Positions 58,104 through 64,000 of a stretch of DNA of 64,000 nt are shown here, piece after piece. The notes under the pieces were generated by a model. That model did not search any database, had not been told where the DNA came from, and saw nothing but the letters and a program-made list of their open reading frames with translations. Source of the stretch: Ignavibacteria bacterium (GTDB lineage: Bacteria > Bacteroidota > Ignavibacteria > UBA10030 > SZUA-254); assembly GCA_016178595.1 (NCBI GenBank), contig JACOSY010000013.1:124001-188000 (forward strand). Reading direction: 5' to 3'. Each line of letters begins with the position of its first letter. Position 1 is the first letter of the stretch. Position numbers and translations under genes: made by a program.

Positions 58104-58910
58104 ATGAACAACGATAAACCGATTTGCTTCGTCATCCAAGAGTATGACGATGGCGGCACATTCGACAGGCGCTATCACGAAACTATCGCGCCAGCCCTGT
58201 CAAAGGCGGGAGTTGAGCCAAAGCGTGCCGACCAAATTCTCGGGCTCCAACCGGTCGTTGAAAAAATCGAGGTTGCGATACAATCTGCCGGTATTTGCGT
58301 TGCCGAAGTCAGCACAGACAATCCAAATGTATGGCTGGAACTGGGCTACGCACTTGCATTGGATAGACCCACTGTCATTCTCTGTGACAAGAGTAAGCGA
58401 TCTCGACTCCCGTTTGATATCCAGCATCGTCCCGTCATTTTCTATCGTACTGATTCGCGAAGCGGATTTGACGAGCTGGAATCCAAACTGATTGTCAATG
58501 TTCAGTCTGAGATAGATCGAGCGAATCGAATCACTCGCGCGCCGGTGCTTAAAGGCGGCGCTACTCAGTTGGAAGATCTGAAGGATTTTGAAGTCGCGCT
58601 CTTGAGCACGCTGTTGGCTCTCTGGCCCACGCCGCGTAGTGGTGCATCGCATGACGAGCTTCGGCAAAAACTGTCTTCGCTAGAGTACAATGATGTGGCG
58701 CTAGGCCTCGGAATTTCGCGACTTCTCGAAAAGGGATATGTCACACAAAAAATACTACACGAGACAGACAGCTGGAATAATGATTATTCAATTCATGTAT
58801 ACCAAATTACCCTTGATGGCATCTCGTGGATTCAGGCACATGAAGACAAGATTCAAATTCGAGAAGTAGTAAAGGATTCGGCGACAACAAAGGATGATTT
58901 ACCATTCTAG
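58104..58910 (+). CDS. TIR/NDT-like (nucleotide-binding Rossmann) protein with winged-helix C-terminus
   Basis: 268 aa. The N-terminal 130 residues have a Rossmann-like fold of the TIR/nucleoside 2-deoxyribosyltransferase type: GICVAEVSTDNPNVWLELGY with the catalytic-type Glu, and ALDRPTVILCDKSKRSRLPF. Such domains hydrolyse NAD or nucleosides in several bacterial defence effectors, or sense nucleotides. Residues about 160-255 (LLSTLLALWPTPRSGASHDE; YQITLDGISWIQAHEDK) form a winged-helix-like domain. The combination suggests a regulated effector, but its activity is unproven. It follows a probable attC site. An 8-bp hairpin (cttcttgc/gcaagaag, 58951-58970) lies after its stop. The Shine-Dalgarno aaaggaaaac is 6 bp before the ATG. 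Confidence 0.6.
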   Translation: MNNDKPICFVIQEYDDGGTFDRRYHETIAPALSKAGVEPKRADQILGLQPVVEKIEVAIQSAGICVAEVSTDNPNVWLELGYALALDRPTVILCDKSKRSRLPFDIQHRPVIFYRTDSRSGFDELESKLIVNVQSEIDRANRITRAPVLKGGATQLEDLKDFEVALLSTLLALWPTPRSGASHDELRQKLSSLEYNDVALGLGISRLLEKGYVTQKILHETDSWNNDYSIHVYQITLDGISWIQAHEDKIQIREVVKDSATTKDDLPF

Positions 58911-59989: not shown

Positions 59990-60241
59990 TTATGTATTCT
60001 TCGTTTTCAGCCCGATCAAGTATTTCGTTGTCGCCTCTGAGACACGGTTCCTGCCGACAGTGAACTCAACGGCAATCGTTGTCACTTCGCAGATCCTTTG
60101 AAGGACGATTTGCGAAGGATACGCTTTGCCTCGTTCGATCTGCGCGTAGTGCTTCAAGGATATTCCGATCTTTGCGGCAAGTTCTTTCTGGACGAGTTTG
60201 TGTTTCTTCCGATACTTTTTGAGCGCCTGCCCCAGCGTCAT
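59990..60241 (-). CDS. XRE-type transcriptional regulator
   Basis: 83 aa. The helix-turn-helix is LGQALKKYRKKHKLVQKELA followed by AAKIGISLKHYAQIERGKAY, a standard Cro/CI-type domain. The rest is a short tail, so it lacks a ligand domain. Its promoter region has a perfect palindrome (TACCT-ATA-AGGTA, 60266-60278), a candidate operator. No partner toxin or phage gene is next to it. Confidence 0.85.
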   Translation of the reverse strand: MTLGQALKKYRKKHKLVQKELAAKIGISLKHYAQIERGKAYPSQIVLQRICEVTTIAVEFTVGRNRVSEATTKYLIGLKTKNT

Positions 60242-60726: not shown

Positions 60727-61821
60727 TTATGCAGCCTCTTTTTTTTCGTAGACTTTCAGAACATCGTACAACGTCGTCCGCTGCGCAGGAATGAATCCTG
60801 AATCCTGAATCAGTTGAATCACCTCTTCCGTGTTCGTCTTGTTCACGAAGTTTGCGGCGGCATGAACGTTTTCTTCGAACAGCGTTCCGCCGAAATCATC
60901 GGCACCGAAGTGCAGCGCGATCTGTCCTGTCTTTTTTCCTTCCGAGAACCACGATGCCTGGATGTGATCGAAGTTGTCGAGATAGATGCGGGAGATGGCA
61001 AGCATCTGCAAATAGCGCATCGGTGTGGCGTAGTGCGGGATAATTTTTTCCAACGGTGTGTTGCCCGGCTTGAAGCTCCATGGGATGAACGCGGTGAAGC
61101 CATGGTACTCATCCTGCAACTGCCGGATCGATTCCAGGTGCTCGACGACGTCTTCGTTGGTCTCAAGATGACCGTACATCATCGTTGCCGTAGTCTTGTA
61201 GCCGATCTTGTGCGCCTCTCGCATGACGTTGAGCCAGTCGGCACTCGTACCTTTGAGGCTTGAGATTTTTTTCTTAACGCGGTCGGATAAAATCTCCGCG
61301 CCGCCGCCGGGGATCGTTCGTTGCCCTGCATCCCACAATCTTTTCAAGACTTCTCGAACCTCCAACCCCGAAACGCTTGCCATCCCGATGATCTCCGATG
61401 TCGACCAGAAGTGTGGCATCACTTCCGGCACCTCCTTCACTGTCCTCTCGACCATCTCGACGTAATATTCGAACGGAATTTTCGGATTCACACCGCCCTG
61501 CAGGAGTACCGTCGTGACGCCATTGGCTACCGAGCGCTTGAAGTTCTCGATCATTGCATCGACCGAGTACGTGTACTCGCCCGCTTCGCCTTCGTGCCGG
61601 TAGAATGCGCAAAAGATACAATCGACGTTGCAGATGTTCGTATAGTTCGGGTTCGTATCGACGACGAACGTTACGCGAGACTCGGGATTCTTCCGGTAGC
61701 GAATTTGGTTCGCGAGGTCGCCGAGGTCCAAAAGTTCGGCGTTCTTCAGGAGGAAGAGACATTCTTCAGGAGTGAGGCGTTCCTGGTTCTGGATTTTGGT
61801 GGAGATGGTTGAGAGGTGCAT
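60727..61821 (-). CDS. mqnC: Cyclic dehypoxanthine futalosine synthase
   Basis: About 364 aa from the ATG at 61821; a TTG at 61833 is in frame. It is a radical SAM enzyme with TNICNVDCIFCAFYR (CxxxCxxC cluster) near residue 62. The glycine-rich LLQGGVNPKIPFEYYV and HFWSTSEI segments and the FIPWSFKPGNTPLEK near residue 255 identify MqnC rather than MqnE. It cyclises dehypoxanthine futalosine in the futalosine route. mqnA lies 1.7 kb upstream and mqnD 4 kb downstream on the other strand. The three-gene operon at 61841-63512 separates mqnA from mqnC. Confidence 0.9.
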   Translation of the reverse strand: MHLSTISTKIQNQERLTPEECLFLLKNAELLDLGDLANQIRYRKNPESRVTFVVDTNPNYTNICNVDCIFCAFYRHEGEAGEYTYSVDAMIENFKRSVANGVTTVLLQGGVNPKIPFEYYVEMVERTVKEVPEVMPHFWSTSEIIGMASVSGLEVREVLKRLWDAGQRTIPGGGAEILSDRVKKKISSLKGTSADWLNVMREAHKIGYKTTATMMYGHLETNEDVVEHLESIRQLQDEYHGFTAFIPWSFKPGNTPLEKIIPHYATPMRYLQMLAISRIYLDNFDHIQASWFSEGKKTGQIALHFGADDFGGTLFEENVHAAANFVNKTNTEEVIQLIQDSGFIPAQRTTLYDVLKVYEKKEAA

Positions 61822-61840
61822 GGGGGCGATCAAGGGATAT

Positions 61841-62269
61841 TTACCCGGGTACTCTTTGATTAACCGGCTCGGGGTTTGGATGATAAGAAGCCTCTCTTGC
61901 TAATTCGAGCGCGATGCTTTTTCGCCTATCTTTATCTGGGGGCCAGCCTGTGATGTTTGCATGGTTTTCATTTCCCGGTATTGGTTCAGAATCTACTAGT
62001 AAAGATTGTTTGCGTACTAATAGAGCTAAGATGTCTGCTCGTCCATAAAGGGTCAGGCTGCGTGCTGTTGCAACATTCTTTCCATGACGCCATAGTTCAA
62101 TTTCGGACAAACCAACATGACGAGTAACTGAAAGCTTTAAATCACTAGGAGGAAGGAATGCATTCTGTGATGGGGTATTATCCTTCTTATGGATCCAATT
62201 GCTGCGGAGGATAAATCGTGCTATTAATTCATTATCAACTACTACCGTAACAGGGAAGTCGGCGTTCAT
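61841..62269 (-). CDS. Hypothetical protein, third gene of the TIGR04255-type operon
   Basis: 142 aa, soluble. Features: ELIARFILRSNWIHKKDNTP, LSEIELWRHGK, YGRADILALLVRKQSL and the C-terminal HANITGWPPDKDRRKSIALE. I have no named family. The conserved-looking HANITGWP near residue 105 suggests a defined function. It overlaps the upstream gene by 4 bp and ends only about 20 bp before the mqnC start, so transcription may run through. Confidence 0.6.
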   Translation of the reverse strand: MNADFPVTVVVDNELIARFILRSNWIHKKDNTPSQNAFLPPSDLKLSVTRHVGLSEIELWRHGKNVATARSLTLYGRADILALLVRKQSLLVDSEPIPGNENHANITGWPPDKDRRKSIALELAREASYHPNPEPVNQRVPG

Positions 62270-62730
62270 GTGGCATTTATACGTCGAATCAAATCAAGAA
62301 TTATTCTTGGCGTTTCTCCCAAGAAAATCTCAGTGCCGTATGCTTTATTGGGTCCGATGAGTGCAGCATAGTGTAAATCTCCTTCTGGGCTTATACTGAC
62401 CGATAGGACACGGTTGGGAGATTGATACCACTCGAATGTAATATGCCCATCCGGTTCAGCGCCAACAGTTGGAGCCGGGATGATAGTAGGAAGAACTTCG
62501 AGAAAAGCATACGCTCTTGCAAAAGTTTCAGCTTGAATCGCGTCGGCCCCGTACCCATCCCACCCTTTTTCTATCGCCATATCTCGTACCTCAATGAGTT
62601 CAGGAAGTACTTTCTTCAGAACTGAAAAATAATAACTATTTTTCAGCTGCTCTTGTATAATAAATGCGGCGCTCGAACTATATCCGGTTGTGCTTGTCCC
62701 ATCAAGGCTAAGAGCAATAGAAGCAATCAT
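62266..62730 (-). CDS. Hypothetical protein, second gene of the TIGR04255-type operon
   Basis: 154 aa. Notable core: EKGWDGYGADAIQAETFARA, then GAEPDGHITFEWYQSPNRVL and SISPEGDLHYAALIG. I do not know a named family. It overlaps both neighbours by 4 bp, so the three products are translationally coupled and likely work together. Confidence 0.6.
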   Translation of the reverse strand: MIASIALSLDGTSTTGYSSSAAFIIQEQLKNSYYFSVLKKVLPELIEVRDMAIEKGWDGYGADAIQAETFARAYAFLEVLPTIIPAPTVGAEPDGHITFEWYQSPNRVLSVSISPEGDLHYAALIGPNKAYGTEIFLGETPRIILDLIRRINAT

Positions 62731-63512
62731 ATGAATGTTTTAAGAAGGTCTTCTGTAATAATACCAAAAAAAGCTTTATTTTTCAACACGTCGATTTCAA
62801 CCAACCGCTGTTTTAATAATTCGCTTTTTGGGCCAAAAGGTTGCTGTGTATAGACATCAATATCAAGAATCAGGGCAAATTCATTTCCTTGACCCTCAGG
62901 AGGTTGCACAGTTTTTATCAAATTCATTGCATATATACTGCCAGGTACGGCAAATATATCGTGGTGTAAGAAGCCAACACGCGTGAGATTCATTTCACGT
63001 AAATCATCAGGAAATCCCCTAAAGTAATCTTCAAGTTGTACACGTTTCTCTCCTATTATTGGAAAGCGATTAATAAACCTGACACCTAATCGTTGAATCT
63101 CAGATGGCTGTGCCAACTCAAAATGGATCTCCCATAATCGGAGTGCTTCGGCACTGAACAGTTGCCAGTTTTCATAGGGTTTGAGTCGACTGAAGGAAAA
63201 GAGATCAAGTTGAAATTTAGTAATGTGGCTTTTGTCTGCTGAAGTGAATTGCCATCCTTGCCAACCTAGATTTTGGCTATCAACTTTAGGTTCTTGACCA
63301 GGAGTCCATTGGAGTTGGCTGGAGAATCCTTGCACAGAGCGATGTTCAGGATATCCAGTTAATAGTTGCTTTAGCTTTGTGAGAATATCGGTTTCGTTCC
63401 ACGGTAGACTTGCTCGCCCTCGTATCTCAATCACCGCTTCGGTGATTGGCGCACGCGAAAGGTGTGGAAATTTTTCTGATGTATCAATGTATGATTGAGG
63501 TGCTTGGTCCAT
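62727..63512 (-). CDS. TIGR04255 family protein
   Basis: 261 aa. N-terminal FPHLSRAPITEAVIEIRGRA and the middle RLGVRFINRFPI are the hallmarks of the TIGR04255 family, sporadic in many bacteria and of unknown function. It is predicted soluble. It is the first gene of a coupled three-gene operon inserted between mqnA and mqnC. The low GC of this operon compared with its neighbours supports transfer. Confidence 0.75.
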   Translation of the reverse strand: MDQAPQSYIDTSEKFPHLSRAPITEAVIEIRGRASLPWNETDILTKLKQLLTGYPEHRSVQGFSSQLQWTPGQEPKVDSQNLGWQGWQFTSADKSHITKFQLDLFSFSRLKPYENWQLFSAEALRLWEIHFELAQPSEIQRLGVRFINRFPIIGEKRVQLEDYFRGFPDDLREMNLTRVGFLHHDIFAVPGSIYAMNLIKTVQPPEGQGNEFALILDIDVYTQQPFGPKSELLKQRLVEIDVLKNKAFFGIITEDLLKTFI

Positions 63513-63548
63513 AAATGTGTTGCCAATATACAGAATAGCTACACTATC

Positions 63549-64000
63549 TCAAAGACAGTGCACGTTGATCATATTAATCTCTTCCACCAACCTCCGAAAC
63601 TCCCGCATCGCCTCTCGTTCTCTTTCGCCAAGCCGGTAGCTGAAGCCTTCGAGATATTCTTCCACATCTTTTCGCTCAAGGCCTATGCGCTTGCCGTGAA
63701 GTTCGCCGATCTCGCCGAAGTGTTCTTCACTCATATCCAGCGAGCGTTCGATGAGCGACGAGAGTTCTTGTTTGGTTTTTTCCGGCAAGGGTTTTTTCAT
63801 TGCCCAGACGGCAAAGACGAACGGCAGCTTCTTCCAGTCGTACCACTCTTTGGCGAGATCGAAGACCAGCTCGAAGCCGGCAAGTCCGTGTTTGTTACGA
63901 TGCAGAGCTTCGTCACCGATGAGGAGCACCGCATCGAACTTCGAGCAATCGTTTACGCCGGCGTGCATCCGTTCGAGCGTTGCTTTTACGCCATATTTCT
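63549..64000 (-). CDS. mqnA: Chorismate dehydratase (5' end outside window)
   Basis: The C-terminal about 150 residues of MqnA, read leftward from beyond the window. Recognisable: KFDAVLLIGDEALHRNKHGL, DLAKEWYDWKKLPFVFAVWA and the helical C-terminus. MqnA removes water from chorismate to start the futalosine route. The start lies outside the window. The open frame continues to base 64000. Confidence 0.85.
   Translation of the reverse strand, partial: KYGVKATLERMHAGVNDCSKFDAVLLIGDEALHRNKHGLAGFELVFDLAKEWYDWKKLPFVFAVWAMKKPLPEKTKQELSSLIERSLDMSEEHFGEIGELHGKRIGLERKDVEEYLEGFSYRLGEREREAMREFRRLVEEINMINVHCL

Follow-up and report, generated by a model that had tools for sequence, protein, structure and literature searches.

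What are three small coupled genes doing between two genes of menaquinone synthesis? In the window (the whole 64-kb stretch of DNA that was analysed), the trio A, B and C splits mqnA from mqnC on the minus strand (Table 1). Both 4-bp ATGA overlaps that join the three genes, and the insertion between mqnA and mqnC (PF02621 and TIGR03699 flanks), were confirmed as the earlier note had described them, as was the membership of one gene in the TIGR04255 family. The lower GC content it had claimed was also found. GC was 0.408 in A, 0.441 in B and 0.438 in C (0.426 for the whole block), against 0.529 in mqnC and 0.52 in mqnA, and just 5% of the same-length stretches in the window were this low. The stop codon of C is 7 bp short of the TTG start of mqnC, and the two genes do not overlap.

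Table 1. Features of the A-B-C locus. Positions are those of the window.
Feature	Description	Position	Strand	Evidence
A	TIGR04255 family, 261 aa, head gene	62727-63512	-	NCBIfam 115.8 bits, AF2 model
B	GWDGYGAD protein, 154 aa, proposed neutraliser (antitoxin)	62266-62730	-	homologues at C loci, PDC-M32A profile match
C	HANITGWP protein, 142 aa, proposed toxic effector	61841-62269	-	AF2, Foldseek, hhalign
A/B overlap	ATGA stop-start, 4 bp	62727-62730	-	sequence
B/C overlap	ATGA stop-start, 4 bp	62266-62269	-	sequence
mqnA, 3' part	encodes C-terminal part; flank outside the cassette	63549-64000	-	PF02621 1.1e-28
mqnC	flank outside the cassette	60727-61833	-	TIGR03699 461 bits
Possible promoter	TTGAGA-16-TATATT, between mqnA and A	63525-63562	-	consensus scan, not above shuffled background

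An inverted repeat at 63540-63562 (minus strand) overlaps the promoter-like hexamers just upstream of A and is possibly an operator. Two further genes of the window were noted. Positions 58104-58910 (plus strand), 3 kb from the cassette, encode a 268-aa protein with a TIR/nucleoside-deoxyribosyltransferase-like N-terminus, which matched a PADLOC TIR effector model at 6e-7 and Pfam TIR_2 at 0.004. Positions 59990-60241 (minus strand) encode an 83-aa stand-alone Xre/Cro-type HTH protein (HTH_3, 4e-13) without an obvious partner gene.

Searching 84,980 species genomes with the C alignment yielded 30 C loci, which belonged to Nitrospirota, Desulfobacterota, Pseudomonadota, Planctomycetota, Bacteroidota and other phyla. 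B was located directly 5' of C in all of them except L046, at a contig end, and L036, near one. A directly preceded B in 19 of the 30 (one A was partial), with A-B-C in identical order in each of the five phyla named, and a further complete A-B-C was present on an IMG/VR contig (L055). The spacing between A and B was exactly -4 in 18 of the 19 other A-B-C loci, and that between B and C was -4 in 9 of the 19. Since the order and the A/B overlap recur in about 20 other genomes, whose proteins are 30-50% identical, the arrangement is not due to chance. The matrices of pairwise similarity for A, for B and for C correlated at r 0.90-0.91, a value reached by 0 of 2000 permutations, although shared ancestry alone also yields such a correlation. 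Within the same phylum, A, B and C were found together in the same order, away from mqn genes, in G030 (another class) and G055 (the same order as the window genome). The window trio was closest to copies of other phyla (48-51% identity) and shared only 28-31% with G055 of its own order, which argues for transfer, with the cassette moving as a unit. Phage records queried with A, and plasmid records queried with B and C, gave no match, a result of little weight; TIGR04255 was present on three plasmids among the plasmid records. At L022 (1489-2016, minus strand) a TIGR04255 gene is broken by stop codons beside an intact downstream pair.

Gene A scored far above the TIGR04255 cut-off of 30 bits and aligned over residues 18-260 of 261. 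Its AF2 model (pLDDT 89.6) consisted of two tandem beta-alpha-beta(3-4)-alpha repeats. Against PDB folds this model gave only weak TBP and McsB matches (E ~0.007, TM ~0.3) and no significant identification, and a PDB sequence search with the A alignment returned nothing meaningful. A relation of A to SecB was rejected: hhalign against a SecB alignment gave E 0.92, without sequence support, and SecB was absent among the 50 best PDB fold matches. As A has no SecB sequence relation and no significant PDB match, the chaperone or sensor role proposed for it comes from analogy.

The family does not stand mostly alone, the outcome that the earlier note had named as contrary to its proposal. Two phyla supplied 43 TIGR04255 genes that could be evaluated. 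For 42 of these the same-strand next gene started -92 to +24 bp from the stop codon, compared with 27 of 51 control genes from SecB, MqnC and KptA loci. Its expectation that the same two partners follow TIGR04255 stood in part: A-B-C is a conserved set, but the partners vary and B-C is one type. Partner classes without an HMM match are described here from reading of the sequences. In one class, a WDGYGA-type B is followed by C or a C-like third gene. In three others, an HTH-bearing second gene precedes a third gene with the motif VVISHDCDLAN, a short second gene precedes one with LSNTCDMS, and a second gene precedes one with LSVNWLEYF...NNPAHS. Two classes carry recognisable third genes. A short antitoxin-like second gene is followed by PemK/MazF (PF02452 at 4e-13, with PDB MazF/EndoA matches), and a 192-aa second gene by a HEPN-type protein (PADLOC HEPN_IX 5e-6, Pfam 0.004, PDB 0.04), which is probably a HEPN toxin. 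Two third-gene groups were homologous to C by profile (c5 at E 1e-6, c4 at E 1e-3). Third genes with YRR..SVNR..NYPHA had suggestive motifs, and their profile relation to C was not significant. A zeta-toxin annotated behind a TIGR04255 gene of a Vibrio plasmid was not counted, because a PDB search did not confirm it and the gap is 107 bp. Third genes with an S(H/N)(D/T)CD motif, after an HTH-bearing or short second gene (L061, L072, L075, L080, L082, L097 and L012, L073, L076, L084, L088), form a large family for which no name was found and are probably another effector class.

The head of B-C was also variable. It was a different 219-aa protein in five Desulfobacterota-type loci and a DUF3467-like protein (PF11950, 2.7e-5, just under the cut-off) in two Hydrogenedentota loci; in the searched literature DUF3467 had an unrelated mention only. 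At L107 (881-3393, minus strand) an AAA-type ATPase gene is followed by B-like and C-like genes. Homology of the 219-aa and DUF3467-like heads to A or SecB was unsupported. Judged from these gene orders and profiles, the partner of TIGR04255 is a variable pair of which B-C is one type, and the heads of B-C are exchangeable as well.

B and C had no NCBIfam or PHROG family match and nothing meaningful in Pfam. PDB sequence searches with their alignments were equally uninformative, the matches of B being designed helical bundles and the like. In family-level profile comparison, C matched PADLOC M32B (hhalign E 3e-7, prob 93, 94 columns), and B matched the C-terminal domain of M32A (hhalign E 1.2e-5; hmmscan E 6e-4), the hmmscan match covering only residues 267-332 of 375. 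The cross-control of C against the M32A C-terminus gave E 0.15, and the B/C cross-comparisons with PDC-M32 were negative. The N-terminal part of M32A is missing here, and TIGR04255 stands in its place. PADLOC's own models did not detect C even at E 1. On these profiles, B-C are remote homologues of PDC-M32 (M32A C-terminus and M32B), an untested candidate for phage defence that appears in the searched literature in a prophage annotation table only. The earlier note's view of an undescribed system thus needs dividing. B-C is not wholly undescribed, since one of PADLOC's uncharacterised candidates is distantly related to it. In a literature search without subscription journals or preprints, neither the TIGR04255 head nor the operon rule turned up, and no paper mentioned the TIGR04255 accession; within that scope the operon rule is undescribed.

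The AF2 model of C reached a pLDDT of 92.3. In Foldseek, 7 of its 8 best PDB folds were KptA/Tpt1 RNA 2'-phosphotransferases, and the remaining one was NarE, an ADP-ribosyltransferase. The best of these matches had E 0.13, prob 0.85 and TM ~0.4, and none was below 1e-3. Direct homology to KptA by profile was not significant (hhalign E 0.07-0.24); at E 0.07 the comparison weakly pairs the KptA motif YHGT..SI..GL with YGRADI..V...L of C. A BFVD search with C gave an unnamed best match (E 0.018, TM 0.40) that was not usable. In the family alignment, F38, P40, S47, L90, H103, A104, N105, G108 and W109 of C were invariant, and R18, R50 and R77 were kept at 96%. From this conservation, R18, R50, R77, H103 and N105 are plausible as a candidate active-site set. 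An ADP-ribosyltransferase-like nature of C is a lead that falls just short of an even call.

The surroundings of the trio point to restriction-modification at some loci. HsdS and HsdR were named by Pfam counts, by cross-matches between loci and by recognising the sequences. On this basis the trio separates hsdS from hsdR in a type I RM operon at L026, L029 and L033; hsdR follows it at L031, and an HsdS-like sequence lies upstream at L034. The flanks held 4 Methylase_S, 2 HSDR_N and 2 DprA proteins. Matches to 189 PADLOC families were found among 106 flanking proteins, dominated by 4 proteins that match type I specificity subunits, while 46 proteins of the window matched 7 families, a small control from one genome. 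The remaining flanks were mostly ordinary metabolism, so the enrichment near defence genes, which the earlier note had proposed as a check, is real at some loci and not universal. In three Pseudomonadota loci PDC-M32 itself had RM neighbours: at L099 and L100 it lay between hsdM- and hsdS-like genes, and at L098 it followed an hsdM-like gene. One could suppose from the several A-B-C and PDC-M32 loci embedded in hsdM-hsdS-hsdR operons, and from the homology of B-C to PDC-M32, that B-C and its head act on type I restriction enzymes, modulating or policing them, instead of forming a free-standing toxin-antitoxin system. We regard this as unlikely: the window copy and most others lie away from RM genes, and MazF, a toxin that can replace C behind TIGR04255, would be ill-suited to an RM regulator.

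The roles within the trio were assigned from position. As TIGR04255-MazF operons have an antitoxin-sized gene second and the toxin third, position three is taken as the toxin and position two as the antitoxin, and by this analogy C is fairly probably a toxin. In CmdTAC the third component (CmdC) can hold the antitoxin, and the toxin is freed when a phage protein competes (PMC11618068). By analogy A is proposed as a holder or sensor, a role for which we consider the odds even. C would then be a toxic effector whose fold is perhaps ADP-ribosyltransferase-like, and B, translationally coupled just before C, would neutralise it. A would hold or stabilise the B-C complex and set the moment of C release, for instance when A binds a product of the phage; the coupling would ensure that A and B are synthesised before C. 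As the present assignment is by position and analogy only, the roles could differ, with B acting as effector and C (or A) neutralising it, which would fit the variable, carrier-like N-terminus of B. This other assignment is nevertheless quite improbable given the gene order in the TIGR04255-MazF operons, the enzyme-like conserved R/H/N set of C and its ART-like fold lead.

The insertion site itself was compared among relatives, in 20 evaluable mqnA-mqnC junctions from mqnC-bearing loci. In 13 of them the two genes are adjacent with nothing between, and 7 carry other insertions; A-B-C occurred at none of the 20. ParE-type toxin genes filled the site at L112, L113 and L115, in L112 together with a DUF559 protein. 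L119 had a PIN toxin and its RHH/DUF6290-like partner, and CAP12/Pycsar-type TIR proteins were inserted at L120, L123 and L128. With toxin or TIR inserts in 7 of 20 relatives, the junction thus behaves like a recurrent TA/TIR hotspot, a place where small conflict cassettes insert, and A-B-C occupies it in this genome. A-B-C could instead serve menaquinone synthesis in a metabolic or regulatory capacity, or be a housekeeping complex that is mobile by chance. Such a function would suit the place inside the mqn operon and the metabolic genes at many flanks in other genomes, but it is highly improbable given the sporadic occurrence (B in 4/297 and C in 4/297 genomes of the phylum, the weakest of the four C matches, G078, being at 7e-4), the lack of a conserved mqn position elsewhere and the TA/TIR genes at the same site in relatives.

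The RM operons, the TA/TIR hotspot, the homology to PDC-M32 and the presence of MazF or probable HEPN genes in the position of C together point to a role in defence or toxin-antitoxin function. That A-B-C is a conflict (TA/defence) cassette is likely. For its nature we lean slightly towards a horizontally mobile tripartite cassette of toxin-antitoxin type, probably anti-phage, with C as effector, B as neutraliser and A as head. More tentatively, and with somewhat more doubt than confidence, TIGR04255 may be the head that a large, unrecognised class of modular tripartite conflict systems has in common, in which C would found a new ART-like toxin branch. Its tandem-repeat sensor or holder, not SecB by sequence, would be plugged onto MazF, HEPN-type, B-C and other antitoxin-effector pairs, and the B-C pair could itself be plugged onto other heads. 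If the rule of TIGR04255 first, a variable neutraliser second and a variable effector third holds, a family that roughly 5-8% of the genomes sampled in two phyla carry (16/297; 30/399) gains a testable function. Several orphan third-position families would gain likely toxin roles, linked to the PADLOC candidate PDC-M32, and for tripartite toxin-antitoxin systems a second type of third component, unlike SecB, would be added. A-B-C would probably serve in phage defence or growth control.

Among known systems, type II toxin-antitoxin modules combine a small coupled gene pair, a layout seen in B-C, with neutralisation of the toxin by a protein antitoxin, which would be the part of B. KptA/Tpt1 enzymes are the best PDB fold neighbours of C, but C is without the N-terminal RNA lobe and without recognisable Tpt1 motifs. 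PDC-M32 has the same kind of adjacent coupled pair, in both systems often within type I RM operons, and the C-terminal ~120 aa of M32A is the homologue of B; its head, however, is fused as the ~260-aa N-terminal domain of M32A, whereas here it is a separate TIGR04255 protein. From the TAC systems the trio differs in that A is not SecB-like by sequence, is a predicted 261-aa tandem repeat and is encoded by the first gene, and no chaperone-addiction tail has been demonstrated in B. It resembles CmdTAC and other TAC systems in its three coupled genes, one of them for a component other than the toxin and the antitoxin, and in the pairing of one third-component type with differing toxin families; CmdT, moreover, is an ADP-ribosyltransferase, and C may be one too (PMC11618068, PMC5105189).
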